A stretch of 45,547 nt of DNA, taken from the NCBI GenBank assembly GCA_945874455.1, contig CAMCHO010000015.1:1-45547 (forward strand). Direction: 5' to 3'. The translations under genes and the position numbers were made by a program. The notes beneath the pieces are model-generated. The model searched no databases, had not been told where the DNA came from, and saw nothing but the letters and a program-made list of their open reading frames with translations. The stretch comes from Opitutus sp. GAS368. GTDB lineage: Bacteria > Verrucomicrobiota > Verrucomicrobiia > Opitutales > Opitutaceae. This document shows positions 4,546-35,275 of the stretch, piece after piece (the first letter of the stretch is position 1; each line of letters begins with the position of its first letter).

Positions 4546-4639
4546 GAAGAAGAAGACGTCGCAGCGAATGTGTTGGGGCGGAGTCGGTGTCAGAAAAATG
4601 GAGACAGAAATAATCGGTACGGAGGCGGCGCGGGGCGGG

Positions 4640-6520
4640 TCACTCCACGATCCGGAGCGGGCGGCGGACTCCGGTGGCGGTCAGTTTGCCGGGGAGGACG
4701 TGGTGTTCCCACAGCGGGAGGAAAGCGTCGCGCTTGCGAAAACGCGCTTCGTCGGAGGCGCGGGCGATGCGTTCAATCGAGCCCGGGGTCTCGGGAGTCG
4801 CGACGGTTTGGTCGCTAAAAATCTCCGTGGTTTCGACGATCGCGAGACTGAGGCCGTCGGTCGGGCGTCCGTCCCGAATAGCGGACAGGTAAGCTGGAAA
4901 ACTGCGGAGCTCGGATGCGGAGATGAGCCGGGGGCGGCCGGTGAGCTCGTCGAGGATACGGCCGGGGGCGAGGACGACTTCGAGGCGCTTGCCGGCCCAA
5001 GCGGGGTTAATGATGAGGTCGATGATCTCGCGATGCGTGGCACCCTGAAAGTCGCGCCAAGCGAGCGTCGCCTGCACGGTCTCGCCGGAGCGCGCGGTTG
5101 AGCGGGAAAGTTGAAACTGTTCGATGACGACAGTGGGATTCTCAGCGAGGGCTTCGACGCTGAAGGTCACGCGGTCGGGAAAGGTTTTTTCGTAGGGATT
5201 TTGGAGATTCGCGGCGAGGCCCTGCACGAATTCGTTGAGGCCCTGCGCAAAGCCTTGCGGGCCGGCGTAGAGACTCTTGGTCGCGAGGGACTGGGAGGCG
5301 GGAAACAGGATGTTGCCGCGAAGGCGGAAGCCGTTGGCGAGGCCCGCGTCGTTGGAACCCATAATGGCCTGAGTGAGGCCGGCGGCGACGATGACGGGGG
5401 TAAGTTGCTGCTGGCGGACGACGGAGAAACGCAACGTGCGGGGAGCGCTGCCGAGGGGTTTTACGGTCACCTCGACGTCGGTCATGGCGGGTCCCGGGCC
5501 GAGCGTGCCGGAAATGGCGGAGAGACGGTCTTGCGAAATCGTGCCGATGACGGCGCCGGTGTTGGCCAGTTTCACCGACGACATGGAGGACGGGAGAATG
5601 GTGACGATCTCGGTGGCGCACATCGCGAGGGAAACTTCGCCGAGGGACAACATGGGGTGGCCGAACGCGGTGACGCGATTGCCATCGATGCGCGAAACCG
5701 TACCGGTGCCGGCGATGGTGATATCGCCGGTGGCAAGGGCGACGGCGACGGCGGAACCCGGGGAGAGCGAGGCGGAGGAAGGTGCGGAGTTGAGGGATGA
5801 GGGTTGGGCGTTGAGCGAGGCGACGGCAGAGGCGGATTGGGTGCTCCCACCGAACGCGATCGCGGAGAGCCCGAGGGCCGTGAAGCGCGGGGAGAAGAGG
5901 TCGGCGACAGCGGGGTTTAGGCCGGTGAGCGTGAAGGCGGGCGCCAGCGGGGTTGGAGCGTGGGGTGAAGCAAGCGGTGCAAGCTGAGGATTGAGCGCCG
6001 ACGGAGGGGTGGATTCTGACGAACGCGACAAGCCGTTGCCGGACGACTTGGGCGTGGGCGGCGTGGACGCGGTGACGCGTTCGCGAACCTCGACGAGGTC
6101 GGCGGCGGGGGTGAAGCCAGCGAAGCGGACCGTCTCGAAACGCTGTAGTTGATAACTGAGTGCGCCGGCGAGTTTGCCGTCGATGTAGAGAGGGCTCCCG
6201 CTCATGCCGGCGACTGCACCCATTTTCTGGACACGCTCATCCGTGAGTTCGCAGACGATGAGCGATTTGCCGAGGCCGAGGGCGTTGCGGATGATACCGG
6301 TGACCTCGACGTTGAAAGGCTCGGGGACGGTGCCGCGGAAGACGGTCCAGACTTCGCCGCGCTGGCCGGGCTTCACGTCGTCGAGAGCGAGGGAGGCGGT
6401 GCCGGAGGGTTGTTGACGAGGCGCGGGTTCGGCGGGTTGGGCGAGGAGAAATTGAAACGGGGAGGACGCAGAGAGCGCGGACAGCAGGAGCAGCCGACGG
6501 AAAGAAAAACAAGAGCGCAT
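4640..6520 (-). CDS. SpoIVB/S55-type serine peptidase domain protein, exported
   Basis: A 626-residue protein. I chose the ATG at 6520 because it begins a clear signal peptide (MRSCFSFRRLLLLSALSAS...LLAQP); the upstream ATG at 6559 sits against the hemL stop and would put 13 non-signal residues in front. Residues 100-120 contain GMSGSPLYIDGKLAGAL, the serine-containing signature of S55 (SpoIVB-like) peptidases (S107/S109), and a second conserved GHP motif lies at 287-289 (AFGHPMLSLGEV). In SpoIVB itself the His motif comes before the Ser motif, so the order here is reversed; similar proteins exist in other Gram-negative bacteria, and peptidase activity is not assured. Between the two motifs lies a low-complexity Ser/Ala/Pro linker (about residues 150-258) carrying two short heptad-repeat insertions. 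Likely periplasmic. Confidence 0.82.
   Translation of the reverse strand: MRSCFSFRRLLLLSALSASSPFQFLLAQPAEPAPRQQPSGTASLALDDVKPGQRGEVWTVFRGTVPEPFNVEVTGIIRNALGLGKSLIVCELTDERVQKMGAVAGMSGSPLYIDGKLAGALSYQLQRFETVRFAGFTPAADLVEVRERVTASTPPTPKSSGNGLSRSSESTPPSALNPQLAPLASPHAPTPLAPAFTLTGLNPAVADLFSPRFTALGLSAIAFGGSTQSASAVASLNAQPSSLNSAPSSASLSPGSAVAVALATGDITIAGTGTVSRIDGNRVTAFGHPMLSLGEVSLAMCATEIVTILPSSMSSVKLANTGAVIGTISQDRLSAISGTLGPGPAMTDVEVTVKPLGSAPRTLRFSVVRQQQLTPVIVAAGLTQAIMGSNDAGLANGFRLRGNILFPASQSLATKSLYAGPQGFAQGLNEFVQGLAANLQNPYEKTFPDRVTFSVEALAENPTVVIEQFQLSRSTARSGETVQATLAWRDFQGATHREIIDLIINPAWAGKRLEVVLAPGRILDELTGRPRLISASELRSFPAYLSAIRDGRPTDGLSLAIVETTEIFSDQTVATPETPGSIERIARASDEARFRKRDAFLPLWEHHVLPGKLTATGVRRPLRIVE
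5789..5816 (-). repeat. Degenerate 7-bp tandem repeat inside the S55-type gene (copy 1)
   Basis: Four consecutive heptads on the + strand: gttgagg, gatgagg, gttgggc, gttgagc. They encode part of the SLNAQPSSLN segment of the linker. A 17-bp stretch, gagggttgggcgttgag (5799-5815), recurs exactly inside nadE at 9455-9471 although the genes are unrelated. Confidence 0.7.
5983..6003 (-). repeat. Degenerate 7-bp tandem repeat inside the S55-type gene (copy 2)
   Basis: Three heptads on the + strand: gctgagg, attgagc, gccgacg. They encode the SALNPQ part of the same Ser/Pro linker. This copy is more degenerate than the one at 5789, and the residues before it (about 5951-5982) may hold further decayed heptads. 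Confidence 0.5.
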
Positions 6521-6559
6521 GAATGGGAAAAGGGACGGCCGTCCGTCCCCAAGAAGCAA

Positions 6560-7936
6560 TCAAAGTTCCGCGATGGCTTGCGACATGATTTCGCAGGCCC
6601 GGTCGATGGCGGAGCCCTCGTGGGCCGTGCTGATAAAGCCGGCTTCGTAGGCGCTCGGGGCAAGGTAGACACCGCGCGCGAGGCAGGCATGGAAAAACCG
6701 GGCAAAGAGTTTGGCGTCGCCGGTGAGGGCGGTCGCGTAGTCGCGCACGGGTGTGGCCGTGAAAAAGATACTGAACATAGAGCCGCATTGGGGGACTTGG
6801 GCCGGGATGCCTTTGGTGCGCGCGGCAGCGAGGACGGCATCGCGGAGTTGGCGACCGAGGCGGTCGAGGCGGGTGTAAGGCGAAGAGCCAGAGCCTTCAT
6901 CCTCGAGGAGGCGGAGGGCGGCGATGCCGGCGGCCATGGCGAGGGGATTGCCGCTGAGCGTGCCGGCTTGGTAGACAGGGCCGAGGGGAGCGAGGTGGTC
7001 CATGATGTCGGAGCGTCCGCCGAAGGCGCCGACGGGTAAACCGCCGCCGATGATTTTCCCGAGGCAGGTGAGGTCGGGGGCAAACGGAAGTCGGGCGTTG
7101 AGGGCTGAGCCCTGAGAGCCGGATGCGGAGGCGGCAGCGGCGTGGTGGGCGGCGGCGAGTTCCTCGTTGAGGAGACCTTGTACGCCGGCCTTGTGGAGAC
7201 GGAAGCCGGTCATGACTTCGTCGAAGATGAGGAGCGCGCCGTGACGCGCGGTGATGGCGCGAACGGCGGCGAGGTAGCCGACGTCGGGCATGATGAAGCC
7301 GACGTTGCCGCAGTAGGGCTCGAGAATGACGCAGGCGATTTGGCCAGGGTTGGCGGCGAACGCGGCGTCGAGGGAGGCGGTGTCGTTGTAGGGGAGAACG
7401 ATGGTCTCGCGGGCGAAGGAGGCGGGGATGCCGGCGCTGTCGGGGTGGCCGTGGGTGAGCGCGCCGGAACCGGCTTTGATGAGCAGCGAATCGGAATGGC
7501 CGTGGTAACAGCCGGCGAATTTAATGATCTTGTCGCGCTGGGTGAAGCCGCGTGCGAGGCGGATGGCCGACATCGTGGCTTCCGTGCCGCTGCTGCACAT
7601 GCGAACTTTTTTGATCGAGGGCACGAAGCGAGTAATGAGCTCGGCCATCTCGACCTCGGAGGGATTGGGTGTGCCGAAGGAAGTCCCGTTTTCGAGGGCG
7701 GCGGCGATGGCGGCTTTGATGACCGGGTGGTTGTGGCCGTGGATCGCTGGGCCCCAGGTGCAGACGAAGTCGATGAGTTCACGGTCGTCGGCGGTGACGA
7801 GCGTGGCGCCGCGCGCAGCCTTGACGAAGAACGGCGCGCCGCCGACGGAGCGGAAAGCGCGGACGGGGGAATTGACGCCGCCAGGGATGAGCTGGAGGGC
7901 GCGAGTGAAGAGGGTGTCGGAGGTGAGAGCGGGCAT
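6560..7936 (-). CDS. hemL: Glutamate-1-semialdehyde 2,1-aminomutase
   Basis: A 458-residue PLP enzyme that converts glutamate-1-semialdehyde to 5-aminolevulinate, the last step of the C5 route into haem. The start [28 protein letters not shown] is canonical. Other signatures: [16 protein letters not shown] (residues 114-129), CYHGHSD (143-149), [10 protein letters not shown] (237-246) and the PLP lysine K294 in [16 protein letters not shown]. The protein is about 25-30 residues longer than usual. The excess is an Ala/Ser-rich insertion at residues 258-286, just before PDLTCLGK, where the family normally has only a few residues. This insertion contains a heptad repeat (see 7090). The gene follows the small hypothetical gene by 3 bp and precedes the S55-type gene by 39 bp, suggesting one transcript. 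Confidence 0.97.
7090..7117 (-). repeat. Degenerate 7-bp tandem repeat inside hemL
   Basis: Consecutive + strand heptads gtcgggc, gttgagg, gctgagc, cctgaga encode the [11 protein letters not shown] part of the extra segment of HemL. The pattern (N-N-T-G-A-G-N) is the same as in the S55-type gene and nadE. Confidence 0.6.
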
Positions 7937-7939
7937 GGG

Positions 7940-8299
7940 TTAGAAATCGTAAGCGTCCTTGCGGTCGTCAACGCGGACAATGCGCACAAAGATGCGTTCG
8001 TCGAGAAGGCGTGCGATCGCTCGGTCGTCGCCCACGCGATCGCCCCGGCCGCCACGAAGAGCAGCGGGCGGGGGCTGATCGAAACGCCGTGGATCTGCGT
8101 CGCCGGCGATGTGCGTAACGAGATAACGCGCGCTGCGCCGGTGCGCCTCGCGGTCGAGGCCCTCGCGTTCGCGCAAGGCCTCGGCCTTAAACTGATCGAC
8201 CCAGCTCGCGCTTAACTTCCGCCAGCGGGTAGGTGCGGGACTGGCCGGCTTCAAGTCGTGCGAATCGCTCTTCGGCGATGCGGATGTTTTCTTGTTCAT
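7940..8299 (-). CDS. Hypothetical protein, basic, 119 aa
   Basis: I do not recognise this protein. It starts MNKKTSASPKSDSHD, a low-complexity basic head, and continues with an Arg-rich body (REREGLDREAHRRSARYLVTH) and an acidic-basic tail ending RVDDRKDAYDF. No signal peptide, membrane segment or cysteine motif is visible. Codon third positions are strongly G/C like its neighbours, which favours a real gene over the competing opposite-strand frame. It ends 3 bp before the hemL start, so it is probably translated on the same message. Nothing ties it to haem synthesis beyond position. Confidence 0.6.
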   Translation of the reverse strand: MNKKTSASPKSDSHDLKPASPAPTRWRKLSASWVDQFKAEALREREGLDREAHRRSARYLVTHIAGDADPRRFDQPPPAALRGGRGDRVGDDRAIARLLDERIFVRIVRVDDRKDAYDF

Positions 8300-8563
8300 G
8301 GAGCCACGAGACCGACGCAGCGCACGCGAGAGCGGGCCTGGAGCGATCGGCGCGCTTGGCCTTGCGGGACAGCTTACTCTCTATGACGGGCTTGATCCGG
8401 AGGAAAACCTTGGCGGGAGCTAGGTGGAGGAGTTGGCCGCGAAAAGGAGAATTCGCGATCCGGCGAGGGGCGATACTTCGGAGACAAACACGTGATAAAA
8501 CATGAGGGGGATGGACCTATGCAGCAGCGCGGCCGCGAAACCGCCCCGATTTTCAGATCACGT

Positions 8564-20021: not shown

Positions 20022-21218
20022 TTAGATTTCGACGCCCTCAGGATAAAGCCGCGGAAAGAAGTAGCCGACGGTCTTACTCGAAAATGAGATCGAAAGCGGC
20101 CCGCCGACTGAATCCGAGCGAAGCAATTCCTGCTCGATGAAATCGGTAACGTAACGTCGTGCGGTCCTCTCGGGTTTATTGAGGATTCTTGCCGCCTCAC
20201 TGCGCGGCAGAGACCCGCGGAGGAAGGCCTCTCGCATGAGCGCCCCCAGCTCAACCGGGGCATCATGGAGCGTACTCCAACGCTCGGCAAAGCGCATGAT
20301 CCGATCTTGCATCGCGTCGAGGTCGAGCGTCTTTGACATGAAGCTCACTTGATCCAAGGCCGTGCCGAGGAAGAATTCGCAGAACATGATTAACCCCTCG
20401 TTCGAAAGGTTTCCTCGTCCGTCGAGGCTGCCTTGGCGTTCGGAGTCGGCGTTGGCGAGCATAGCGCGGTAATCGTCTCGCCGCCGAGCAAACCCGCGCG
20501 AGATGGCCCACAGTCCGGCCGTCTCCACGCCAGCTCTCGCTAGGTAAGCGTTGGCAAACAGACGGGCCACGCGGCCATTACCGTCCTGAAATGGATGAAT
20601 CCATGCGAAACGATGGTGCGAAGCGGCCGCGGCAATGATTCGATCCAGCGGATCGAGATTTTTCAGATCATAAGCGGAAGCAAACCGCGACATGAAGCGA
20701 GCTAGGGAGCCAAAGGTCGGAGCAAGGTGGGCGCCCACCTCCACTTCACCCTTTCGGAATTCCCCCGGTTCGATTATTTTTCCGGAAGGTTGGATGCGGA
20801 ATTCAGCCGGCATGCGCTCGTAGAATTCGCGGTGAAGAGTCTGAAAAAAAGAATCCGCGCACACATCTACGTTCGGCTGCTGAAGACGCTGAGTCATCAG
20901 TAACTCAACTTTTACATGAGCAGCGCTTTCCAGTTGAAGCGCGCGCTTGGCCGGTTCTGTCGAGTAATCGTTTCTAAGGGCGCGCTCGATATCAGCCGGA
21001 TGGGTGTGGTGGCCCTCGATTAGGTTCGAGTAGTAGCTGTTCATGTTCACCACCAGTTGGGCGACACCAGCGCGAGTGATGGGATGGAGAGTCCCAGCGA
21101 GCTTAGCTGATTGAACGAGGAGTCGAGATGCACTCTCCCGAAGCCTGCCAGAGGCATCTGTGGGCATGAGCGGCTCCATCGCTGCTTCGTTTGAATAAAT
21201 TTCGCGTTTATGGGTCAT
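20022..21218 (-). CDS. Fic/DOC family protein (AMPylase-like) with N-terminal inhibitory motif
   Basis: A 398-residue Fic protein. The Fic motif HPFQDGNGRVARLF (residues 188-201) is complete, including catalytic H188, D192, N194 and R196, so transfer of AMP or another nucleotide moiety to a target protein is plausible. Near the N-terminus, SNLIEG (S64, E68, G69) matches the [S/T]xxxE[G/N] inhibitory helix whose Glu blocks ATP binding, which makes this a class II, self-inhibited Fic. The C-terminal 70 residues look like a winged helix (SEAARILNKPERTARRYVTDFIEQELL), as in Fic proteins that bind DNA. No separate antitoxin gene is adjacent. The start at 21218 is followed upstream by an AT-rich stretch with repeated ATGGCCG sequences. 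Codon use is less G/C-biased than the housekeeping genes, in keeping with an acquired gene. Confidence 0.93.
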   Translation of the reverse strand: MTHKREIYSNEAAMEPLMPTDASGRLRESASRLLVQSAKLAGTLHPITRAGVAQLVVNMNSYYSNLIEGHHTHPADIERALRNDYSTEPAKRALQLESAAHVKVELLMTQRLQQPNVDVCADSFFQTLHREFYERMPAEFRIQPSGKIIEPGEFRKGEVEVGAHLAPTFGSLARFMSRFASAYDLKNLDPLDRIIAAAASHHRFAWIHPFQDGNGRVARLFANAYLARAGVETAGLWAISRGFARRRDDYRAMLANADSERQGSLDGRGNLSNEGLIMFCEFFLGTALDQVSFMSKTLDLDAMQDRIMRFAERWSTLHDAPVELGALMREAFLRGSLPRSEAARILNKPERTARRYVTDFIEQELLRSDSVGGPLSISFSSKTVGYFFPRLYPEGVEI

Positions 21219-22141: not shown

Positions 22142-25100
22142 CTACGGGACTTCGTAGATTTCGACGAGGGCCACTCCGGTCGTGGTGCCCACGCCACTTA
22201 CTTGGGCGGTGTAGGGACCGGGCGCGAGGGTCACGAGGAGGGCGGCGTCGCGGCTCGTCGCGCTGGTGAGGGCGAAGGCGCCGACGGCGGAAAACGCGTT
22301 GGCCAGACTGCCGGTGCCACCGGTGGTCGCGCCCCAGTTGTCATTGCTCTCGACGAGTCTCGTGCCGCGATAGAGATCGAGGCGCGGATCGGCCAGCACG
22401 CCCGCCACGCCGAAGCCGGTGAGGGCAGGTCCGATGGCACGCACGAGAATGGTCTTGGGTAGGTTGCCGTTGATGACGAAACCCGCGATCAAAATGCCCC
22501 CGTCGCCGGTTACCAGGGCGCGGGCGGAGGCGTTGGTGAGTCGACTGGTGGCTACGAGGGCGGGGGCCCCGAGGGGGGTGGGGTCGGCGTCGTAGAGCTC
22601 GGCCAGAGCGATGCCGGTGGTGCCGGCGGCTCCGGTGATTTGGACGGTATAATTGCCAGGCGGTAAACTGCGCGCGAGAGCGGAGTCGAGGGAGGCGGGC
22701 GGCAGGGCGAAAGCGCCCAGCGCGGCGAAGGACGCTGCGAGCGCGGGGGTGCCGCCCCAATGGTCGTTGGTGTCGAGGAGGCTGCTCGCCGGAGCGGTGA
22801 AAAGGTGAAGCTGAGGATCGGCGAGCGCCCCGGTGACGCCGAACGGTGTAAGGCTGGGGCCGATACCGCGCAGTAAAACCGCTTTCGGGGAACCGGGGCC
22901 GATGATGAAACCGACGGTGAGGGTTTGGGCGGCGGTGCCGGCGGTGGTGCGGACGGAGAGGTTGACGAGGCGACCGGGCAGGGGCGGCTCGGCAGTGATG
23001 AGGGCCGGTGAACTGGTGACAGTGCCTTGCGGGCCAGCGACCGTGACGGTGTAGCTGCCGGAGGTGGCGGGGGAAACTTTCGCGACCGTGTAGGCGGAGG
23101 CCGTGGAGCCAGCGAGGACGAGGCCGTCTTTTTTCCACTGATACGTGAGCGGGCCTTGACCGGTGGCGGTCACGGTAAGGGTCAGCGTGCCGTTGAAGAG
23201 AGCAGATTGGGAGACGGGTGCCGCGAGGATCGTGAGGGACTCGGTGAGGGCGCGGCCCAAGCGGCGGGGGTTGTGGCGGTATTGCGGCCAGGGGCCGGAG
23301 CCGGCCCCGGCGGTACCGAGGTCGAGGGCGTAGAGTTTGTGGTCGTTGCTGCCGATATAGAGCGTGGAGCCGGCGATGGCGGGGTTAGAACGGATCCAAT
23401 TACCCATGGACCACGTGCGGTTGAGCGAACCGTCGGGGTTGAGGGCGTAGAGTTTGTAATCGTAGCAACCGACATAGATCACGCCGTTGGAATCGATGGC
23501 GGGGGAGCTGGCGCGAACTTCGTCGCCGAGGAGATAGGTCCAGCGGGCGACGCCGGTGGCGGAGGCGAGGGCGTGGAATTTTTTGTCGTAGGCGGCGAAA
23601 TAGACGGTCGCGCCATCCGCGCTCAACACCGGAGACGACGAGGTGGAGAGGGAGGCTCCGGTGTAAACCCAGCGGAGGGTGCCGGTGGGGGTGAGCGAGT
23701 AGAATCGACCGGAGTTGAGGACGCCGAAGTAGAGGTTGCCGGCGGCGTCGAGGGCGGGAGTGGTGTAGATCTCGTTATCGGTGGTATAGGTCCACTTGAG
23801 GGAACCGTCGGGATTGAGGGCGTAGAGTTTTTTGTCGTCGGAGCCCTGGTAAATCGTGCCATCGGGGCCGATGGCGGCGCTGGCGTAGGATTGGAGCGCG
23901 CTGACGTTGGCGCGCCACTTATTCGAGCCGTCGGTGGGGTCGAGCGCGTAGACGAAGCCATCGCTGACTTTGACGTAGACGGTTCCGTCAGTGGCGAGAG
24001 AGGGACTGTTGCTCACGCTGAGGGTGCCAGTGCCGGTGCTGAAGTTCCGCGACCAACGGCGGGTGCCGTCCGGGCGGAGAGCGTAGAGCAAGCCATCGTT
24101 GGAGCCGAAGTAGATGGTGCCGTCGTCGGCGATAGCCGGTGAGCAGGTGTCGATGAGGCCGCCGGTGGGGAAGCTCCATTTGAAGGTGCCATCGGACGCG
24201 AAGGCGTAAAGCGAGCGGTCCGTACTGCCAATGTAGATACTGCCGTCAGGGGAGACGGCGGGGGCGCCGGTGAGGGCGGAACCGACGACGGTGGCGCTGC
24301 CGGTGTCGGACTGCCAGAGGGCGTCGGACACGGTGAGGGTGAAGGTGCCGACGGCGGAGACGGTTTTGGAATCGACGGTGATGAAGTAGGTCTGTCCGCC
24401 GACGGCATCAACCGGGCAAAGGCTGGCGGTTTGGGAGTTGGCGGGGCCGGAGTTGTCGTTGGCGGCGACAAGCGTGAGCCCATTCGACAGGCTCAGGGCA
24501 GGGGCGGCGGGAGCGGTGTAAACGGCGAGGAGGGGATCGAAGTCGTTGCTCACCGCGGCGAATTGGAAGCGCCCAGAACGCGGGGCCGTCCATCGATACC
24601 AGAGCGAGGTCCCGCCGGAGAAATTGAGGATGCGCGGTTCCCCGGTTTCCCTGGTGCAATTGGCGTTAGTGGCGGTGACGCCGTCGCTGAGGCCTGCGAG
24701 CGCGACGGGGTTGGCGAAAGCATCATTGGCGGGGACGGTGCCGAGATTGAGGAGGGTGAGGCCGGAGGCGGTACTCTTGCCGTCCACGGAGATCTGATAC
24801 GTGACACCGGCTTGGGCGGTGAAATCGATACGGCTGGTGAGGGCCGCACCGTCGTTGTCGTTGGCGGTGACGAGCGTGAGGGCGGCCATGGCGTTGCCGG
24901 TGTAAACGGAGAGAACGGTATCGTAGGCGCTGCCGGTGGTGCTGAGGCGGACGGCGGCGGTGGTGGTGGGCGTCCATTCCCACCACAGCGAAGTGCTGCC
25001 ATTGCCGGCGGAGGCGACGGGTTCGCCGGCCTCGGCAGTGGCGCCGGTGTTGTTCGAGCGGACAAGGAAATTATCGCCGACGAGGCGGGCGCGTTGGGCG

Positions 25101-26461
25101 AAGTCGTCGTTGAAGGGCCGATTGGACGTCGTGGTGAGTGCGCCGAGGAGATTGAGGCGGGAGCCGTTTTGCGATTTGCCGGCGTAGCGGGCGATGGGGT
25201 CGGTGCCGCGCAGGAGGCGATTGATGAGCTGGCGGTAGGTATCGGCGGGGAAATGGGCCTTGAGCAAGGCGAGGGCGCCGGCGACGTGGGGTGCGGCCAT
25301 CGAGGTGCCGGAGAGGGTGGCGGTGCCGGTGTTGTTGGTGTAGCCGACCGAGAGAATGCTCTCGCCGGGGGCGAGCAGATCGACCGTCGTGCCGTAATTG
25401 GAAAACGATGACATGGTCTCCGAGCGGGTGGAGGCGCTGACGGTGACGATGTTGTCGAGCGGGAAGCTGGCGGGGTAGTGGCGGGAGACGTCGAGGTTGG
25501 CTGATTCGTTGCCAGCGGCGGCTACAAAAATGACGCCGGCGTTGCGGGCGGCGGTGATGGCGGCGAGTTCAGTCTGGGAAAACCCGATACTGCCGGTCTC
25601 GCCGTAACTGGCGTTGATGATGTGGGCGCCGTGGGCGATGGCGTAATTGATGCCAGCGGCGATGTCGGACACGGAGCCGCTGCCGGTGGAAGGGAAGGCT
25701 TTGATGGCCATGAGCTGGACCTTCCATGCGACCCCGGAGACGCCGACGTTGTTATTGCCGACGGCGCCGATCGTACCCGCGACGTGGGAGCCGTGGCCGC
25801 CGTCGTCGGTGGGGTTGCCGCTGACGAGGGCACCGCGGCCGCCGACGAAGTTGGCGCCGTGGCGATCATTGGCGGCGGACGGCGCGGGATTGATCCAGAG
25901 ATTGGGGGCGAGGTCCTGATGGGTGAGGTTCAGGCCGGTATCCACGACGGCGACGATGACGTTGGGCGCGTCGCGGATCAGGTCCCACGCGGCGAGGGCC
26001 TTGATATCGGCGCCGGGGACGCCGCTGGACTGGCCAAGGTTGTGGAGCGCCCATTGGGTACCGAAGGCGGGGTCGTTGGGAGCGAGGGAAAGGTGGCGGA
26101 GGCCATCGCGCTCGACAAATTCGTAGCGGCCGGTGGCGGTGAGCCGAGTGATAGCGGCGCTGACGTTATCGGCATCGTCGAGCTCGATGACGCGGAGATC
26201 GCGGATGTGAGAGAACGTGGTGCGAACACGGACGCGGTCGCGAGTCTCCTCGGCGTCGGCCGAGGCGCGGCGGGATGCGCGGGGTTTAGCGAGAAGGGTA
26301 CGGTCGCGGAAACCTTGGGCGAATTCCTTGGCAGTGATGGGCGCGGGATCGGCTGCGCGGGAGGTGTGGAAGGATACTGAGAGAAGGAGGGAAAGGAAGA
26401 CGGAGAGAAGGAGAAAGCGGGAGACGCGGGATTGGGTTGGCACGGAGCGGTGGAGGCGCAT
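22142..26461 (-). CDS. Secreted subtilisin-like (S8) peptidase with PQQ-like propeller, Ig and C-terminal tandem domain
   Basis: A 1439-residue exported protein. I start it at the ATG at 26461, which opens a signal peptide (RFLLLSVFLSLLLSVSFHTSRAAD); the longer frame from 26728 has no signal in front. A propeptide-like region (40-130) precedes the S8 domain, with D174 (AVVDTGLN), H223 (GGHGSHVAGT), N318 (AAAGNES) and S387 (GTSMAAPHVAG). About 430-670 are two PPC-like beta-sandwiches, 690-1060 a PQQ-like propeller with blades such as DGTIYFGSNDGLLYAL, 1085-1160 an Ig-like domain (YQWKKDGLVLAGST), and 1165-1439 two copies of a C-terminal domain shared with two other proteins here. It probably degrades proteins outside the cell or at its surface. 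A palindromic short repeat is inserted in the second sandwich (24476-24504). Confidence 0.92.
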   Translation of the reverse strand: MRLHRSVPTQSRVSRFLLLSVFLSLLLSVSFHTSRAADPAPITAKEFAQGFRDRTLLAKPRASRRASADAEETRDRVRVRTTFSHIRDLRVIELDDADNVSAAITRLTATGRYEFVERDGLRHLSLAPNDPAFGTQWALHNLGQSSGVPGADIKALAAWDLIRDAPNVIVAVVDTGLNLTHQDLAPNLWINPAPSAANDRHGANFVGGRGALVSGNPTDDGGHGSHVAGTIGAVGNNNVGVSGVAWKVQLMAIKAFPSTGSGSVSDIAAGINYAIAHGAHIINASYGETGSIGFSQTELAAITAARNAGVIFVAAAGNESANLDVSRHYPASFPLDNIVTVSASTRSETMSSFSNYGTTVDLLAPGESILSVGYTNNTGTATLSGTSMAAPHVAGALALLKAHFPADTYRQLINRLLRGTDPIARYAGKSQNGSRLNLLGALTTTSNRPFNDDFAQRARLVGDNFLVRSNNTGATAEAGEPVASAGNGSTSLWWEWTPTTTAAVRLSTTGSAYDTVLSVYTGNAMAALTLVTANDNDGAALTSRIDFTAQAGVTYQISVDGKSTASGLTLLNLGTVPANDAFANPVALAGLSDGVTATNANCTRETGEPRILNFSGGTSLWYRWTAPRSGRFQFAAVSNDFDPLLAVYTAPAAPALSLSNGLTLVAANDNSGPANSQTASLCPVDAVGGQTYFITVDSKTVSAVGTFTLTVSDALWQSDTGSATVVGSALTGAPAVSPDGSIYIGSTDRSLYAFASDGTFKWSFPTGGLIDTCSPAIADDGTIYFGSNDGLLYALRPDGTRRWSRNFSTGTGTLSVSNSPSLATDGTVYVKVSDGFVYALDPTDGSNKWRANVSALQSYASAAIGPDGTIYQGSDDKKLYALNPDGSLKWTYTTDNEIYTTPALDAAGNLYFGVLNSGRFYSLTPTGTLRWVYTGASLSTSSSPVLSADGATVYFAAYDKKFHALASATGVARWTYLLGDEVRASSPAIDSNGVIYVGCYDYKLYALNPDGSLNRTWSMGNWIRSNPAIAGSTLYIGSNDHKLYALDLGTAGAGSGPWPQYRHNPRRLGRALTESLTILAAPVSQSALFNGTLTLTVTATGQGPLTYQWKKDGLVLAGSTASAYTVAKVSPATSGSYTVTVAGPQGTVTSSPALITAEPPLPGRLVNLSVRTTAGTAAQTLTVGFIIGPGSPKAVLLRGIGPSLTPFGVTGALADPQLHLFTAPASSLLDTNDHWGGTPALAASFAALGAFALPPASLDSALARSLPPGNYTVQITGAAGTTGIALAELYDADPTPLGAPALVATSRLTNASARALVTGDGGILIAGFVINGNLPKTILVRAIGPALTGFGVAGVLADPRLDLYRGTRLVESNDNWGATTGGTGSLANAFSAVGAFALTSATSRDAALLVTLAPGPYTAQVSGVGTTTGVALVEIYEVP
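24476..24504 (-). repeat. Dispersed-type short repeat inside the subtilase gene
   Basis: On the coding strand this reads ccctgagcctgtcgaatgg and neighbouring bases. It resembles a short repeat (consensus about ccctgagcytgtcgaaggg) that is scattered through many bacterial genomes, often translated as PEPVE- or LSLSNG-type peptides. Here it encodes PALSLSNG in a loop of a PPC-like domain without breaking the frame. Confidence 0.6.
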
Positions 26462-26560
26462 GACAGATGGGGCTAACGCTAGGCGTGCGTTTTTTTTCGA
26501 CAAGCTCGGTGTCAAAACGGCGCTGAGCTTATTCCAATGAGCTTTCAAGATGAGTTGGAA

Positions 26561-26587
26561 ATCGCCCGCAAGCAGGCTCCTACCTCC
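26561..26587. repeat. REP-like short repeat between the two giant genes
   Basis: The sequence atcgcccgcaagcaggctcc, followed by tacctcc, resembles REP-type elements (minus strand gtaggagcctgcttgcgggcgat) known from several bacterial groups. It has an imperfect inner inverted repeat, gcccgc/gcaggc. It sits in the 266-bp spacer upstream of the subtilase start. Confidence 0.5.
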
Positions 26588-26704
26588 AAGCGGTTTAAAC
26601 CCACCTTGATCGCGAATTGAGATCGCTCCGGACTTACCGGTGGGAAGGCGCGGGGCACGGAGCGCGAGTAAGCTCGCGGCCTTCGGGAGGGCGAAGAATG
26701 GAGG

Positions 26705-26724
26705 CATGGGCTGGAAAGCCCATG
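26705..26724 (-). terminator. Candidate hairpin terminator after the copper monooxygenase-like gene
   Basis: A perfect 8-bp stem catgggct/agcccatg with a GGAA loop (TTCC on the minus strand) lies 3 bp past the stop codon at 26728. No T-run follows, so termination strength is uncertain. Confidence 0.4.
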
Positions 26725-26727
26725 GCA

Positions 26728-29700
26728 CTACGGCAGGTCGTAGACCTCGACGATGGCGACGCCAGTGGTGTTGTTTACCCCGCTGACTTGCGCGGTGTAG
26801 GTGCCGGCAGGAAGAGTGATAATGAGGGCGGCATCGCGGCTGTTGGCCGTGAGCGCAAACGCGCCGACGCTGGAAAAAGCCGCGGTGAGCTGCGCGGCAG
26901 TGGAAGTCGAGGGACTGATGGGCGCGGACCAGTTATCGTTGGTGGCGAGGGGAGCCTCGGTGCCCTGGCGGAAGACTTCGAGCTTTGGGTCGGCAAGGAC
27001 TCCGGTGACACCGAAGCCCGAGAGCGTCGGGCCCACGGCGCGAATGAGCAGGCTACGAGGGGTGGTCCCGCGCACGACGAAGCCGGCGGCGAGGATGTCA
27101 GCACCGGTGGCGACGCGAGCGCGGCAGGAGAGATTCACGAGCGTGCTGGGCGTGGCGTCGGCCTCATAGACTTCGACGAGGGCGACACCCGAAGCGGCGG
27201 CCCCCGTGCCGGTACCGGCGACTTGAATGGTGTAGCTGCCGGGCGGAAGGGTGACGAGAAGCGCGGCGTCGCGGCTACCGGGGGCGAGGGCGAAGGCGCC
27301 CTGGGCAGTGCTCGCGGCTTGGAGCGCGGCGACATCGGGGACGTTGCCCCAGTCGTCATTGACGAGAATGGGCTGGTTGGCGGAATCGAACACAGTGACG
27401 ACGGGATTAGCGAGCGTGGCGGGGACACCGAAGGCTCCGAGGGCCGGACCGGCGGCGCGGATGAGGAGAGTTTTCGGTTTTGTACCACGAATCGTGATAC
27501 CGGGGATAACGACGTTGGCCCCGGTGCCGACGCTGGCGCGGGCGGAGATATTCACAAGACCGCTGAACTCAAAGGAGATGGTGGCAGGGGTGCTGGTGGT
27601 GGAGCCGGCGGAATTGGTGGCGACGCACGTAAAATCTCCGGCGTAGGCGGCGGTGAGGTTGGTGAGCTCGAGGACGGGCTCGGTGGTGTTGCAGAAATCT
27701 TGGCCGCGGCAGAGCCACGTGTAGGTCGGTTTGGGGAAACCGGTCGCGGCGGCGAAAAGAGTGATGTTGGCGCCGAGGGCCGTACGAACGCTCTTAGGTT
27801 GGACGGTAAAGACAGGGGCGGCGGTGGCGGCGCTGACCGCGAGGTCGACGACGGTGGCTGCGGAGCCGGCGGCATTTTCGGCGGTAATGACGAAGGCGCG
27901 GCGACCGGAGAGGGTCGGGGTGCCAGAGAGCACGCCGGTGCGGGCGTCGAGGGACAGGCCGGCGGGCAGCGAGGCGGCGCGAAACGTCGTCGGGCTGTTG
28001 GCGGCGGTGAGGGCGAGGGTGAAGGCTTCGCCGACGCGGCCGCGCGCGACGGACGTAGCGGCGAACACGGGCGGCTTCGCGGTGGTGATGCGGTCGGGCA
28101 GCTCGGCGTAGTTGATGTAGCCGATGAACATCTCATCGTTGGTTTGTTCGCCGAAGCGGACTGTGGCGCGGGAGTTGGGGTTGGCGGGATTTTGGGCGGA
28201 ATTATCGAAAGCGCCACGGACATGGATGATGGTGCCGGCGGGGAGACGCTTGGGTTGGGCGAAGCGATACTGCGACTGCCAGTTGAAATCGTACTGGGGG
28301 ATATTGAGCAGGGTTTCGCTCGAGCCGTCGGGGTAGAGAGCGTCGTATTTGAATCGCTTGCCGCGGTAGTGCATGTGCGTGTTGAGCTCGTAAAGCATAA
28401 CATCCTTCGTCGCCGAGGCGATAAAGGTGGCCTCGCGTTCGTAGTCTTTCGCCCCGGCAGGGATGGTGATGGCGACGTTGTTGGCGGACTTGGTCAGCAG
28501 CTGACGTTCCGGAGCGGTGGTGGCGAAATAGAGGCCGAGCTCGGTTTCGTCGGTCTCGGGTTGCCCGGTGGTGGTGTAATGCATTTGGACTGTGACCTTG
28601 GAGTCTTTTCGGAGCATTTTTCCGGACCCCTCGGGGAACCAAGTCTGGTCCAATCCGGGGACGTAACCGGCAAAGAACCCGGTCAGCCCTGGTAGGGCGC
28701 CACCGAGGATAGCGAGAACCTGCTCGACCTGGGAGCCTTCGAGAACCAAGGCATGGTGAACGACCCGCCGGTTGCCGGGCTTTACGAAAACGGCGCGGAG
28801 CCATTTGTCCTCGGACGTGGGGATCGTGACTTCGGGATAATCGTAAGAAAGGGTGCCCGTTGCGGGCAGCGATTTTTTTGGCAGCCGGAGGATCATATCG
28901 GGCCGGCCGAGGGGCCAATCGCCACCGGCGGGAGCGGCGGCGATGGCGAGGGGATCAGTGGTGGCATTGCCGCGGGGGGCACCGGCGCGGGCCCAAGCGT
29001 GGAGCGTGGAGGATTCGGCGGGGGTGAGGGCGGCACCGTTAGACCAGACGCCGTAGCGGGAGTCGGCGTGCCACGGGGCCATCCGTTTGACGAGCATCGA
29101 TTGGCGGATGCTCGCGGCCTTGGCGGACACGTCGGAAAACTTGGCGTAGACGTGGGGTGCGATATTGCCCGGCGAGTGACACGAGACGCAGCGCGCGAGC
29201 ACAATGGGAGCGACTTCCGTGGCGTAGTCGGGCACGGCGGGGGCAGGCAGGTCGAGCGCCAGTGCTGTAGGTCTGACGGCGATACGCGTGCCGGCGGCGG
29301 GGGCGGTGCGGGCGATGAGCGCGGCGACGGAGTCGGCGGCGAAGTTTTGGGTGGGAGCGGCGAGCGAGGTAGGGTCGGCGTTGTCGAGGGGGCCGCGATA
29401 GGAGAGCGTCCAGTTTTCAGAGTTGATCACGAAAACTTCCAACTGGCGCGTGACACCGAGTTCGGAGGCGACGAGTTGGGCTTCGTCGAGGAGGACCGGC
29501 GTGGGATTGTTGAAGAGTGCTTGCTCAGCGACAAGGGCGGCTCGGTCGGCGGCGAGGTTGGAGTCGATTTGCCAGAGGGTGACGTCGGTGGCAGCCCAGC
29601 GGGCGCGCAGGGCGCGAAGGGCACTGGCGGTTTGCAGCCTGCGGGGGCTGCCGCTGGCGGTGAAGACGAGGACGACAGCCTTGGTGGTGGACTCGTAGTA

Positions 29701-29925
29701 GAGTTCGCGGGTGGCACCGGTATGGTCGGTGAGACGGAAATTAGGGACGAAGCTGCCGGGGGCCAGACCGTCGGGTGACTCGCTGGTGGCGAACACCCTC
29801 GGATCGAAAGGGCGAGTGCCCGAGTGGTCCATGGAAACGAGCTGCGGTGCCGCGAGCGCGAGCGCGGAAGTGATCGGCAGGAGTCGGCGCGAGAGCCGGA
29901 AAAGGATGAGGAGGAGGGAGCTCAT
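26728..29925 (-). CDS. Exported copper type II monooxygenase-like protein with haem c motif and C-terminal tandem domain
   Basis: A 1065-residue protein started at the ATG at 29925, which opens a signal-like segment (LLLILFRLSRRLLPITSALALAAP). Residues 55-205 look like a thioredoxin/peroxiredoxin fold, but the active-site stretch reads VFTASGSPRR with no cysteine. A single haem c motif, CVSCH (C246, C249, H250), lies in a short cytochrome-like segment. Residues 340-680 resemble copper type II ascorbate-dependent (PHM-like) monooxygenases: HH at 390-391, QMHY with H449 and NTHMHY with H517 and H519. An Ig-like domain (LPAGLSLDARTGVLSGTPTL) and a second Ig domain follow; 789-1065 are two copies of the shared C-terminal domain. 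It may oxidise a small or polymeric substrate outside the cell, with the haem supplying electrons. Substrate unknown. Confidence 0.88.
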   Translation of the reverse strand: MSSLLLILFRLSRRLLPITSALALAAPQLVSMDHSGTRPFDPRVFATSESPDGLAPGSFVPNFRLTDHTGATRELYYESTTKAVVLVFTASGSPRRLQTASALRALRARWAATDVTLWQIDSNLAADRAALVAEQALFNNPTPVLLDEAQLVASELGVTRQLEVFVINSENWTLSYRGPLDNADPTSLAAPTQNFAADSVAALIARTAPAAGTRIAVRPTALALDLPAPAVPDYATEVAPIVLARCVSCHSPGNIAPHVYAKFSDVSAKAASIRQSMLVKRMAPWHADSRYGVWSNGAALTPAESSTLHAWARAGAPRGNATTDPLAIAAAPAGGDWPLGRPDMILRLPKKSLPATGTLSYDYPEVTIPTSEDKWLRAVFVKPGNRRVVHHALVLEGSQVEQVLAILGGALPGLTGFFAGYVPGLDQTWFPEGSGKMLRKDSKVTVQMHYTTTGQPETDETELGLYFATTAPERQLLTKSANNVAITIPAGAKDYEREATFIASATKDVMLYELNTHMHYRGKRFKYDALYPDGSSETLLNIPQYDFNWQSQYRFAQPKRLPAGTIIHVRGAFDNSAQNPANPNSRATVRFGEQTNDEMFIGYINYAELPDRITTAKPPVFAATSVARGRVGEAFTLALTAANSPTTFRAASLPAGLSLDARTGVLSGTPTLSGRRAFVITAENAAGSAATVVDLAVSAATAAPVFTVQPKSVRTALGANITLFAAATGFPKPTYTWLCRGQDFCNTTEPVLELTNLTAAYAGDFTCVATNSAGSTTSTPATISFEFSGLVNISARASVGTGANVVIPGITIRGTKPKTLLIRAAGPALGAFGVPATLANPVVTVFDSANQPILVNDDWGNVPDVAALQAASTAQGAFALAPGSRDAALLVTLPPGSYTIQVAGTGTGAAASGVALVEVYEADATPSTLVNLSCRARVATGADILAAGFVVRGTTPRSLLIRAVGPTLSGFGVTGVLADPKLEVFRQGTEAPLATNDNWSAPISPSTSTAAQLTAAFSSVGAFALTANSRDAALIITLPAGTYTAQVSGVNNTTGVAIVEVYDLP

Positions 29926-30466
29926 TGGGGGGAGGCTAGGAGAACAAAAGCGGATGTGCCAAATACGGAATACCCGGGGGCGTAGGTTCGCCAATTTTAT
30001 TACCGATTGATGCAATACCCCGAACCTGACTTCGGGAAGGTGTGAGCGGGTGGCGATGAGCGTGCCCGCAACGATTGGCAAACGAGTCGCGAGGAAATAA
30101 CCCTTCAGCCTGACCAGCATGAAAAATGATCAAAAGATAAGAAACGAAATGTTCGGAAACGGGAGAACCGAAAATAACCGTAGAGAACGACAAGGCGGGT
30201 GTCGTGCAGCACTCAGCACGAAAGACGAGTCCCATAAAAAGTGTCACGTAATACGTGACACTTTTCTAGAAGGATTTTTGAGCGTTTTTGAGGTTCATTT
30301 AATCGCGTAATCCAGGCCGCCGTTTTTACGCGTGGTCGGGTGGGCGGGACGGGGTCGCCGGCTTGCGATGATCAGCCCATGCAACGGGCTAGGCTGCCCG
30401 CTCCACCGGCTCCACCGAAAAGCTCCCTTGCCAGCGACAGACCACGCCCCAAATCTTTCTGCCCTT
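29926..30466. other. Divergent intergenic region between the copper monooxygenase-like gene and cimA
   Basis: About 540 bp between divergent start codons, so it should hold promoters for both. It is more AT-rich than its surroundings, notably 30115-30310. The 29-bp palindrome at 30237-30265 is the only strong element. Short in-frame extensions of both genes run into it but carry no signal peptide or conserved residues. A cgtgc/gcacg stem (30204-30221) is also visible. Confidence 0.5.
30237..30265. promoter_or_regulatory. 29-bp perfect palindrome
   Basis: Two 14-bp arms, aaaagtgtcacgta and tacgtgacactttt, flank a single central A. As RNA it folds into a 12-bp stem with a 5-nt loop, with A-tract and T-tract ends as in a bidirectional terminator. 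It lies about 310 bp from the left start codon and 200 bp from the cimA start, in a divergent region, so an operator for a dimeric regulator is an alternative. The sequence alone does not decide. Confidence 0.6.
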
Positions 30467-32434: not shown

Positions 32435-32596
32435 ATTTAAAAATCCCTCCAGCTGAGGCGGCGAGTGCCCTCGACCGCAGGGCCCGCCCGCCGAGAGGGC
32501 GGCCCCGTGGGGAGGGTACCCTCAGCGTTGCCGAGTGTATGCGATTTCGTTTTCGTTTTTCAGCACCAACGCTTTCTTCAAAGGTCTCTCGGCTCT

Positions 32597-35275
32597 ATGA
32601 AAATGAATCCTTTCTTCACGTTACTGACATCCTCGGCTTTTCTGGCGGGCTTCCGCCTCACGTGCCGGACGCGGTCGGCATATCTCGCGGCCCTCGGAAT
32701 CGTCGCAACGACGGTCGCGCAGCCCTTGGCCGTCACGACCATCGCGGGCCAAGCCGGGGCCCGCGGGAGTGGGGATGGCCTAGGCGCCACGGCGCGATTT
32801 TCCGGGCCGAGTGGCCTCTCGGCGGATGGAGTCGGCGGCATTTACGTCGTTGATTCGCTCAACAATACGGTTCGACGCATCACCGCGTCGGGCGTGGTGA
32901 CGACGATTGCGGGGGGCGAGATTAACGAAATCACCGCTCTGCCGACGCGGGGCTATGCTGATGGCACGGGCCGCAGCGCTTTGTTTTCAACCGGATTTGC
33001 CGTCACCTCGAGTGCGACGGGACCGCTGATTGCGGCCAACTACGGGGCGTTGACGATGGCTTTGGATTCTCAGGGCAATCTTTATGTCGCCGATACGCTG
33101 AATCACGTGATCCGCAAAATCTCGAGCGCCGGCGCGGTGACTACTTTGGCAGGTAGTCCAGGAAGCTCGGGCAGTCTGAATGGGGTGGGAGGCAACGCCC
33201 AGTTTTCGTCGCCGTATGGGGTCGCCGTTGACAGCGCGGGCAACGTCTACGTCGCGGATGCTGGCAACAACACGCTCCGCAAGATTACGCCGGGCGGCAA
33301 CGTGAGCACCTTGGCAGGCCGCGACGGCTCCAACGCCGGTGACCGCGATGGCAACGGTGCTGACGCGCGCTTCAATAGCCCGAGTGGGGTGACGATCGAT
33401 CGTGCGGGCAACGTCTACGTCGCCGACACCAACAACCACACGATCCGCAAAATCTCCTCGGCTGGGACCGTCACGACCTTGGCTGGCGCGGCGGGTAGCA
33501 AAGGAAGTTCCGACGGGATTGGCCTCAAGGCGCGCTTCAACGGTCCGACCGGAATAGCGGTCGACAGCGCGGGCACGATTTTGGTGGCCGACACCGTTAA
33601 CGGCACGATCCGTCGGATTACGCCGGCCGGTGTCGTGAGCACGATCGCAGGCCTCGCGGGCTCGTCGGGTGCCGTGGACGGCACGGGTAACGCCGTCCGC
33701 TTTTCGACACCCTACGGTGTGGCGGTCGACAGCGCCGGGAATATTTTTATCGCCGACAGCGGCAACAACACCGTGCGCAAGGGTGTCGTCAGTTCGGCTG
33801 GGACCGTCACTATTCAGACGCAGCCGAAGACCCAGTTCGTCAATCTGGCCACTCCGGTGCTTTTCACGGTCGTGGCGTCGAGCACGACTGCGCCCACGTA
33901 TCAGTGGCGGAAGAACAATGTAAACGTGATCGGGGCCACCGCCGCGACTTATGCAATCGCAGCAGCGCAGAACTCCGATGAAGCGAGTTACACGGTCGTC
34001 GTGACGAGTGGCTCAGTCTCGGTAACCAGCAGTGCGGCTGTCCTACAGGTTTATCCTGCGTCGGTCTTCATTCCTCCGATAATCATTATTGCGCAACCGT
34101 TGGCGCAGTCGATCAGGGCTGGTGAGAGTGCGACGTTCGTCGTGGATGTCGTCGGCTCGGCAACGCCGTCGTTTCAGTGGCAGAAGAACGAGGTGAATAT
34201 CGGTGGCGCGACGAGTAGCACCTATTCGATCGCCTCCGCGACTAGCGCGGATGCCGGCACCTACCGGGTCGTCGTCAGCGCGGGTGGGGACATTCAAAAC
34301 TCCCTCTCCGCTGCGCTCAGCGTAACCGGCGTGATCACGCCACCGCCGGTGACGCCGCCAGTAACGCCGCCAGTAACACCGCCAGTCACACCGCCGGTCA
34401 CACCGCCGGTCACGCCGCCGGTGACACCGCCGGTCACACCGCCAACACCTCCCTCCACGGCGTTTGGCCGCATCATCAATCTCTCGATTTTGACGTCGCT
34501 CGCAGCGGGCGGAGAAAATTTCACCATGGGCTATGTCGTGGGTGGCAATGGTACCGGCGGCGTGAAGCCGTTGGTGATCCGAGCGGCCGGGCCATCGCTC
34601 GGCGCTTTGGGCGTGGGCGGCACGTTGGACGATCCGAAATTGGAGCTGTTCGCCAGTGACACCAAGACGGGGGAGAACGATAACTGGGGCGGCTCACCGC
34701 AAATGACCGCGGCGATCGCGGCGGTGGGAGCGTTTGCTTATGTAAGCCCAACGTCGAAGGACGCAGCGACGAGCGCGAGCATCACGACGCGAGACAACTC
34801 GGTCGTCGTCTCGGCGGCGAATGGTGGTGCCGGGACCGTCATTGCGGAAATTTACGATGCGACGGCGTCGTCGGCGTTTGCCGCGACAACGCCCCGCTTG
34901 ATCAACGTCTCGGTGCGCAAGCATCTCGGCACGAGACTCACCGTGGGTTTTGTGTTGGGTGGGACGGTGGCGACAAAAGTTTTGATCCGGGCCGTGGGCC
35001 CGACGCTCGGCGACTTCGGGGTTCCGGGCGTGGTCGCCGATCCTCAGCTGACGCTCTTCAACGACGCTTCGGTGAAAATCGGCGAGAACAACGATTGGGG
35101 TGGCACGGCGGAGCTGACGGCGGCCTTTGGGGCAGTGGGCGCATTTGCGCTGCCGGCGACGGCGAAGGATGCGGCGTTGCTCGTGACGTTGCCGCCCGGA
35201 AACTACACGGTACAGGCGTCGGGCACGGCGGGCACCACCGGCGTGGCGCTCGTGGAAGTTTACGAAGTGCGGTGA
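32597..35275 (+). CDS. Secreted NHL-repeat protein with Ig domains and C-terminal tandem domain
   Basis: An 892-residue exported protein. I start at the ATG at 32597 (MKMNPFFTLLTSSAFLAGF), upstream of a membrane-like segment; earlier in-frame codons overlap a GC-rich leader just past tRNA-Tyr. About residues 50-400 contain at least five NHL-type blades of the form GVAVDSAGNVYVADAGNNTLRKI, each followed by TTLAG and a G-D-G turn, which build a beta-propeller. Two Ig-like domains follow (YQWRKNNVNVIGA and FQWQKNEVNIGGA, about 410-580). A proline-rich linker with eight VTPP units leads to residues 623-892, two copies of the C-terminal domain shared with the subtilase and the copper monooxygenase-like protein. 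No catalytic motif is visible; a binding or scaffold role at the surface is likely. Confidence 0.88.
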   Translation: MKMNPFFTLLTSSAFLAGFRLTCRTRSAYLAALGIVATTVAQPLAVTTIAGQAGARGSGDGLGATARFSGPSGLSADGVGGIYVVDSLNNTVRRITASGVVTTIAGGEINEITALPTRGYADGTGRSALFSTGFAVTSSATGPLIAANYGALTMALDSQGNLYVADTLNHVIRKISSAGAVTTLAGSPGSSGSLNGVGGNAQFSSPYGVAVDSAGNVYVADAGNNTLRKITPGGNVSTLAGRDGSNAGDRDGNGADARFNSPSGVTIDRAGNVYVADTNNHTIRKISSAGTVTTLAGAAGSKGSSDGIGLKARFNGPTGIAVDSAGTILVADTVNGTIRRITPAGVVSTIAGLAGSSGAVDGTGNAVRFSTPYGVAVDSAGNIFIADSGNNTVRKGVVSSAGTVTIQTQPKTQFVNLATPVLFTVVASSTTAPTYQWRKNNVNVIGATAATYAIAAAQNSDEASYTVVVTSGSVSVTSSAAVLQVYPASVFIPPIIIIAQPLAQSIRAGESATFVVDVVGSATPSFQWQKNEVNIGGATSSTYSIASATSADAGTYRVVVSAGGDIQNSLSAALSVTGVITPPPVTPPVTPPVTPPVTPPVTPPVTPPVTPPVTPPTPPSTAFGRIINLSILTSLAAGGENFTMGYVVGGNGTGGVKPLVIRAAGPSLGALGVGGTLDDPKLELFASDTKTGENDNWGGSPQMTAAIAAVGAFAYVSPTSKDAATSASITTRDNSVVVSAANGGAGTVIAEIYDATASSAFAATTPRLINVSVRKHLGTRLTVGFVLGGTVATKVLIRAVGPTLGDFGVPGVVADPQLTLFNDASVKIGENNDWGGTAELTAAFGAVGAFALPATAKDAALLVTLPPGNYTVQASGTAGTTGVALVEVYEVR
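34349..34444 (+). repeat. 12-bp minisatellite coding for VTPP repeats
   Basis: Eight in-frame units of 12 bp (gtNacNccgccN) encode the VTPP linker of the NHL-repeat protein. Third positions vary between units (gtg/gta/gtc, acg/aca), so the array is not freshly duplicated, but unit number could still vary between strains. Confidence 0.95.

Follow-up and report, generated by a model that had tools for sequence, protein, structure and literature searches.

What does a pair of domains do when it recurs at one end of proteins that are otherwise unrelated? The question is raised by three proteins encoded in the window, the whole 45,547-nucleotide stretch of Opitutus sp. GAS368 DNA analysed here. 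The first is a subtilase-family open reading frame (22142-26728, minus strand; likely start at the ATG at 26461) for which Pfam reports an S8 domain, a PQQ-type propeller and a weak Ig-like match ahead of the pair. Its C-terminal end consists of two copies of a domain of about 130 residues, copy 1 at 22583-22972 and copy 2 at 22145-22543, the latter at the extreme C-terminus beside the stop codon at 22142-22144; this confirms the tandem that the first-pass annotation had placed at residues 1165-1439, a numbering that fits the ATG at 26461. The two other proteins on which the same pair had been reported also carry it. The second frame (26728-30120, minus strand) adjoins the subtilase frame and has He_PIG and Ig domains, with an AhpC/TSA match slightly below the Pfam cut-off and a copper-monooxygenase C-terminal match slightly above it, followed by copy 1 (27154-27561, minus strand) and, at the C-terminus, copy 2 (26731-27144, minus strand). 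The third (32465-35275, plus strand; likely start at the ATG at 32597) has NHL repeats and two Ig-like domains, from which a long PPVT-type Pro/Thr-rich linker (residues 625-663 of the frame) leads to copy 1 (34469-34864, plus strand) and copy 2 (34895-35272, plus strand), the latter at the extreme C-terminus ahead of the stop codon at 35273-35275.

All six copies were located with a profile built from the same six sequences, against which each scores 175-195 bits; the next-best frame in the window reaches 5.7 bits, and we rejected chance or artefact as their source on the basis of this gap. They share 35-59% pairwise identity and contain the motifs listed in the first-pass annotation, here written RAxGPxL, LADP, ND(N/D)W, GAFAL, D-A-A-L, PGxYT and VE(V/I)YE.

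Several other features of the window deserve mention. In the region that separates its protease domain from its propeller, the subtilase frame has two NDxFA...GEP...SLWW.W...VYTG...NDN repeats without a Pfam match (residues 536-803; window 24320-25123, minus strand), and similar repeats are found in locus L196. Some 1 kb from the subtilase, a Fic/DOC family protein is encoded at 20022-21218 (minus strand), and a frame of 788 residues at 2179-4545 (minus strand) has no Pfam match at E ≤ 1e-5.

The domain had been called undescribed, a claim that holds for Pfam and for PDB sequences and needs qualifying elsewhere. Pfam gave no consistent match among 133 copies and no family for the first copy; the commonest match, CarboxypepD_reg, was to 4 of the 133 (best E 0.009). 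The PPC family (PF04151) matched none of the six window copies at E ≤ 10 and none of the 133 at E ≤ 1, in HMMER scans whose filters discard most matches above about 0.1, and aligning PPC with the module using hhalign gave a probability of 10.5%, with just two PPC sequences on one side. Sequence searches of the PDB returned nothing at E ≤ 10 for profile A1 and one match at E 0.52 for profile A4, and no match to the module was found in plasmid and phage records. The exception is the NCBIfam model NF038127 (FDP_fam, the DVUA0089 family), to which 98 of the 133 copies show similarity at E ≤ 1, in most cases below its cut-off and with 2.5e-7 as the best value. In the module's own genome it has 16 matches at E ≤ 0.01, every one of them on a module copy and one passing the curated cut-off of 29 bits by 0.3 bit; elsewhere, two module copies in genome G099 narrowly exceed it (29.8 and 29.2 bits). 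With hhalign, the module aligned to four FDP-type sequences, three above the FDP cut-off and one (L220) below it, with a probability of 65% over 76 columns. As judged from these profile comparisons, the module is remotely homologous to FDP_fam. We found no published description of the domain in the literature searched, which is not proof of absence, and the accessible part of an Opitutales genome paper (PMC13274419) has no mention of pep-cterm, sorting, c-terminal or cell surface. Similar sequences probably occur in other verrucomicrobial and acidobacterial genomes.

Modelling of the fold, which the first-pass annotation had proposed as a check, gave confident predictions of a jelly-roll. AlphaFold2 modelled the pair, including subtilase copy 1, with a pLDDT of 93.8 and a pTM of 0.90 (103 sequences) and a single copy, subtilase copy 2, with a pLDDT of 93.2 and a pTM of 0.88 (133 sequences); each copy is predicted to have eight strands and two helices of at least four residues. 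The pTM of the pair model fits one rigid unit. In this model, chains of about 100 residues align across residues 1-276, which hints at a possible exchange of strands between the copies. Compared using VIA-align, for which Z below 8 may reflect just a common arrangement and the module's scores are modestly above that level, the single-copy model was most similar, among the neighbours listed, to the C-terminal domain of TkSP (Z 9.8, r.m.s.d. 2.8, 96 aligned residues), a region that we take to be a PPC-type jelly-roll, with the s3b collagen-binding domain of ColG (Z 9.4, r.m.s.d. 2.6, 92 aligned) and the PPC domain from B. anthracis (Z 9.0, r.m.s.d. 2.2, 90 aligned) also among its matches. Top matches from Foldseek were of the same kinds (E 7e-4 to 1e-3). 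Other jelly-rolls, the N-terminal domain of DeCLIC (Z 9.4) and LipL32 (Z 8.9), score like PPC, so the match shows fold and not family. On these models, the module copies are predicted beta-jelly-rolls of the PPC/collagen-binding type. Profiles and predicted models together make the module look like an unregistered subfamily within the PPC/FDP-like jelly-roll group, and its likeness to well-described domains amounts to a remote resemblance in fold and profile to PPC and FDP.

Across the module's own genome, 115 first-look candidates yielded 68 profile matches, partial ones included, on 41 open reading frames; the stretches examined and the window cover all 68 places. Thirty of these frames end no more than 3 residues past a complete copy (24 pairs and 6 single copies), and five have complete copies near the N-terminus (3 pairs and 2 singles). 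None of the 41 has a complete copy at an internal position, and the six frames with partial copies only were left out of these placement counts. Among the six single C-terminal copies, those in L146 and L150 are in frames cut at the 5' side by the contig end, and that in L122 is in a frame of 141 residues. Those with N-terminal copies comprise two DUF1800 plus CHRD proteins and one each of beta-lactamase-like, fasciclin and BNR/sortilin-like proteins. Twenty-eight frames that contain a complete copy and are closed at the 5' side were scanned for hydropathy and judged by eye (L122 is absent from the scan output); 25 of them showed a segment resembling a signal or an anchor, largely in agreement with the earlier description of the carriers as exported; a clear signal peptide was not seen in L121 (frame 4423-8397), L128 or L151.

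The same placement is seen in relatives. A contig scan of genomes gave at least 574 confirmed places, of which we used the best 80 loci, all titled Opitutae/Opitutia, Opitutaceae, Opitutus or Verrucomicrobia. Setting aside partial, truncated and single copies, these loci and the own genome (27 pairs) comprise 130 complete pairs. Of these, 114 are C-terminal, ending no more than 2 residues short of the stop; 15 are N-terminal, directly behind a signal-like region; and one is internal (L084), with a laminin-G-like domain downstream of the pair. The module had been described as fixed at the C-terminus; this is true of most pairs, but not of the N-terminal and internal ones. Merging at 75% identity left 110 clusters, of which 97 are C-terminal and 11 N-terminal, one is internal and one mixed, and the pattern therefore does not stem from near-copies. 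In three other families, f8, f12 and f17, sampled in 17 stretches that hold part of those genomes' matches, 18 of 21 frames carry the module at the C-terminus (within 3 residues), 3 at the N-terminus behind a signal-like segment and none internally, after one 3'-open frame and one 74-residue fragment were dropped. In one of the 18, L225 (G013:C9; frame 3040-3981, minus strand; 314 residues), the pair stands alone, preceded by nothing more than a signal-like segment. The carriers in G169 and G181 (L171 and L172), for which NCBIfam names delta-60 repeats only, continue for about 55 residues after the pair and end in a Gly-rich, hydrophobic and then Arg-rich stretch. We read this as a putative CTERM-like membrane tail, in which case the pair there seems insufficient as an anchor.

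A tree of 260 copies, which has few columns for its number of rows and 104 unresolved forks, groups first copies with first copies and second copies with second copies, with 15 label changes in total. The C-terminal copy-1 and copy-2 groups require 19 changes each, compared with means of 84.5 and 85.2 when labels are shuffled. This clustering by position led us to reject recent duplication within each protein as the rule; from the tree, the pair is probably an old unit, mostly inherited as two domains, although single copies occur. The label for N- or C-terminal placement changes 12 times, so the pair seems to have switched ends several times.

Partner regions were scanned with Pfam in the 3 window frames, 29 other frames of the own genome and 9 relatives (8 N-terminal carriers and L084), and the first-pass annotation's description of them as unrelated was borne out. 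They include peptidases (S8 subtilase, M10 matrixin, M12 reprolysin-like and M60), phosphatases and nucleases (PhoD, phytase-like, metallophosphatase and endonuclease), other enzymes (amidase, phosphodiester glycosidase, beta-lactamase-like and multicopper oxidase), CotH with a lamin-tail domain, DUF1800 with CHRD, fasciclin and YHYH domains, together with PQQ, NHL and BNR propellers, many Ig-like domains and Ig-only proteins. Two of the 29 other own-genome frames, L128 and one in L139, had no Pfam match. Despite these differences, one set of near-invariant residues is identical in both copies and at both chain ends: the Arg of RAxGP, the Asn and Trp of ND(N/D)W, the Asp of D-A-A-L, and the Glu and Tyr of VE(V/I)Y. 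These residues may be purely structural.

To place the module within its phylum, 387 genomes were searched with profile A1 (23 match at E ≤ 1e-3), profile A4 (25 at E ≤ 0.01) and a divergent pair as query (21 at E ≤ 1e-3). Of 21 solid carriers, 18 belong to the window's own family, f1, in which 37 genomes were searched, and one each to f8, f12 and f17; among 286 genomes of the class, 21 match, including four additional f12 genomes. Family f1 would be Opitutaceae, as inferred from the named loci of the contig scan. Weak matches in G114, G134, G077 and G050 (E 2e-4 to 9e-3) and in G203 (E 5e-4) were not accepted as carriers; with frames read by eye, the match in G134 looks like a wrong frame and that in G077 like GMP synthase, and that in G114 sits in an open long frame. 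Copy numbers from these scans are lower bounds because scoring was confined to the 7-14 highest-ranked candidates of each genome. First-look candidates numbered 296 in G507 and 267 in G534 (f12, genus g230) and 194 in G271 (f1), with 14 per genome scored, and some genomes possibly hold over a hundred copies.

Whether the module co-occurs with one secretion machinery, a question also raised by the first-pass annotation, was examined in 40 genomes, the 21 carriers and 19 non-carriers. Exosortase was found in 19 of 21 carriers versus 19 of 19 non-carriers and was rejected as partner machinery because it does not track the module; none was found in the carriers G310 and G351, indicating that sorting by exosortase is not required. 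SprA of the type IX system (TIGR04189) was detected in none of the 40, with control genomes also silent. All 21 carriers, and 15 of the 19 non-carriers, have a GspD-like secretin (TIGR02517, E < 1e-80); some match occurs in each of the 40 genomes, none above the curated cut-off. A type II-like secretin is thus compatible with the module and not specific to it. The search of these 40 genomes for exosortase, SprA and the GspD-like secretin revealed no machinery that tracks the module.

We propose, as a tentative reading that falls somewhat short of an even chance, that the pair is a partner-independent attachment handle by which exported proteins are held on a shared surface or matrix ligand. 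The pair is placed at a free end of exported proteins, mostly as the last residues and less often behind the signal peptide. Carriers would be exported by the general signal-peptide route and would cross the outer membrane probably via the GspD-like secretin. The pair might then bind a single shared ligand, either at the cell surface or within the extracellular matrix, and so hold many different enzymes and adhesin-like proteins there. We count in favour of attachment the unity of the pair, its terminal placement, the diversity of its partners, the stand-alone form, the predicted fold and the presence of the secretin in every carrier. Against it we count that the pair is not obligatory (single copies make up 6 of the 30 C-terminal and 2 of the 5 N-terminal own-genome frames), that PPC domains of the same fold bind substrate according to the available part of the source (PMC3327674), the tail in G169 and G181, the three frames without a clear signal peptide, and the secretin in non-carriers.

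A rival reading is a sorting signal, with the pair serving as the address for an outer-membrane secretion machine, like a type IX C-terminal domain, and maybe cleaved later. C-terminal pairs do stop almost at the end of the profile, 106 of 114 without a further residue, and the final residue is Pro in 105 of 114 (own genome and the best 80 loci in relatives) and in 90 of the 97 all-C-terminal clusters at 75% identity. Pro occupies the third position past the conserved Tyr in 102 of 114 C-terminal second copies versus 2 of 114 first copies, and in 3 of 15 N-terminal second copies. The existence of N-terminal copies, in the own genome and its relatives as well as in f8, f12 and f17, nonetheless disfavours a strictly C-terminal sorting signal, and a handle is the better match for a module that can sit at either end. 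Nor is the proline a robust mark: just 4 of the 18 C-terminal carriers in f8, f12 and f17 end in it, so the end position is conserved and the end residue is not, which weakens its case as a C-terminal recognition signal. The last column of the pair alignment, in which some N-terminal rows are included, ranks 74 of 276 in conservation, and 29 of 307 other long frames, a background that may include spurious ones, also end in Pro. C-terminal proline frequency varies widely among bacterial phyla, as far as the accessible text of PMC7246954 covers them. The type IX tail model TIGR04183 matches 1 of 133 copies (E 0.013), and the 133 copies gave no consistent profile match to type IX C-terminal domains, PEP-CTERM/exosortase tails or SLH anchors. 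Exosortase does not track the module, and SprA was undetected, with its controls silent. Overall, we regard sorting as unlikely.

Equally improbable, in our estimate, is that the pair is a substrate-binding accessory, each pair binding the polymer attacked by its own enzyme in the manner of PPC and collagen-binding domains. Those domains are among the closest predicted folds, and the parts of the published accounts available to us report protein binding by both PPC domains of protease E495 in isolated form, higher efficiency on proteins for the form of this protease that carries one PPC domain (PMC3327674), and collagen binding by a C-terminal segment from Grimontia (PMC6168687). However, partners with unrelated substrates, or with no enzyme domain at all, share one near-invariant residue set, for which a common destination is a better fit than substrate binding, and a stand-alone pair exists in L225. 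That same protein counts against a structural end-cap, which we hold to be the least probable of these alternatives and in which the pair would aid folding, shield the chain end from exopeptidases or be removed on maturation. Terminal placement at either end and compact, confidently predicted beta-sandwiches would suit a cap, as would the mature form of protease E495 without PPC domains recorded in the available part of PMC3327674; yet the pair covers one end only of each protein, and two conserved domains mostly travelling together exceed what a simple cap needs. Among the sorting, anchoring and substrate-binding roles suggested in the first-pass annotation, partner diversity favours attachment to a shared ligand over substrate binding, and C-terminal-only sorting appears unlikely.

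Beyond the attachment handle itself, a broader proposal, possible but doubtful, is that Verrucomicrobiota have an undescribed surface-attachment or secretion pathway for which the pair serves as docking tag. Such a pathway would accept the tag from either end of a protein, would handle tens of different exported proteins in each cell and would include the stand-alone pair protein among its components. To our knowledge, the location of verrucomicrobial enzymes after export is little described. The module marks some 35 frames in the own genome, 30 at the C-terminus and 5 at the N-terminus, a few of them fragments; hydrolases, oxidases and adhesin-like proteins are among these carriers. Should the attachment reading be right, sequence would tell which of these proteins stay on the cell, and the pair would be a partner-independent tag that is both testable and usable; at minimum, a domain model missing from Pfam is supplied.

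Type IX C-terminal domains, PEP-CTERM/exosortase tails and SLH anchors are shared modules at one end of varied exported proteins, and the module described here is likewise a common end module on many exported proteins. It differs from type IX C-terminal domains in also occurring at the N-terminus, and from PEP-CTERM proteins in that its C-terminal carriers end in or just past the last beta strand, with no membrane-tail motif except in G169 and G181. NF038127 matches the module mostly over the LADPxL...NDNW...PGxYT region, but mostly omits its conserved N-terminal part (RLVNLS...GFxIxG...RAxGPxL), and the module's pairing and terminal placement are outside that model, as far as seen here. Like PPC and clostridial collagen-binding domains, which the available parts of the literature describe as frequently C-terminal and repeated on secreted enzymes (PMC3327674, PMC6168687), it sits in tandem at chain ends; unlike PPC, it has the RAxGP and GAFAL motifs, near-constant terminal pairing and partners that are mostly other than peptidases. 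What is new here is a PPC/FDP-like jelly-roll variant with unusually uniform usage.
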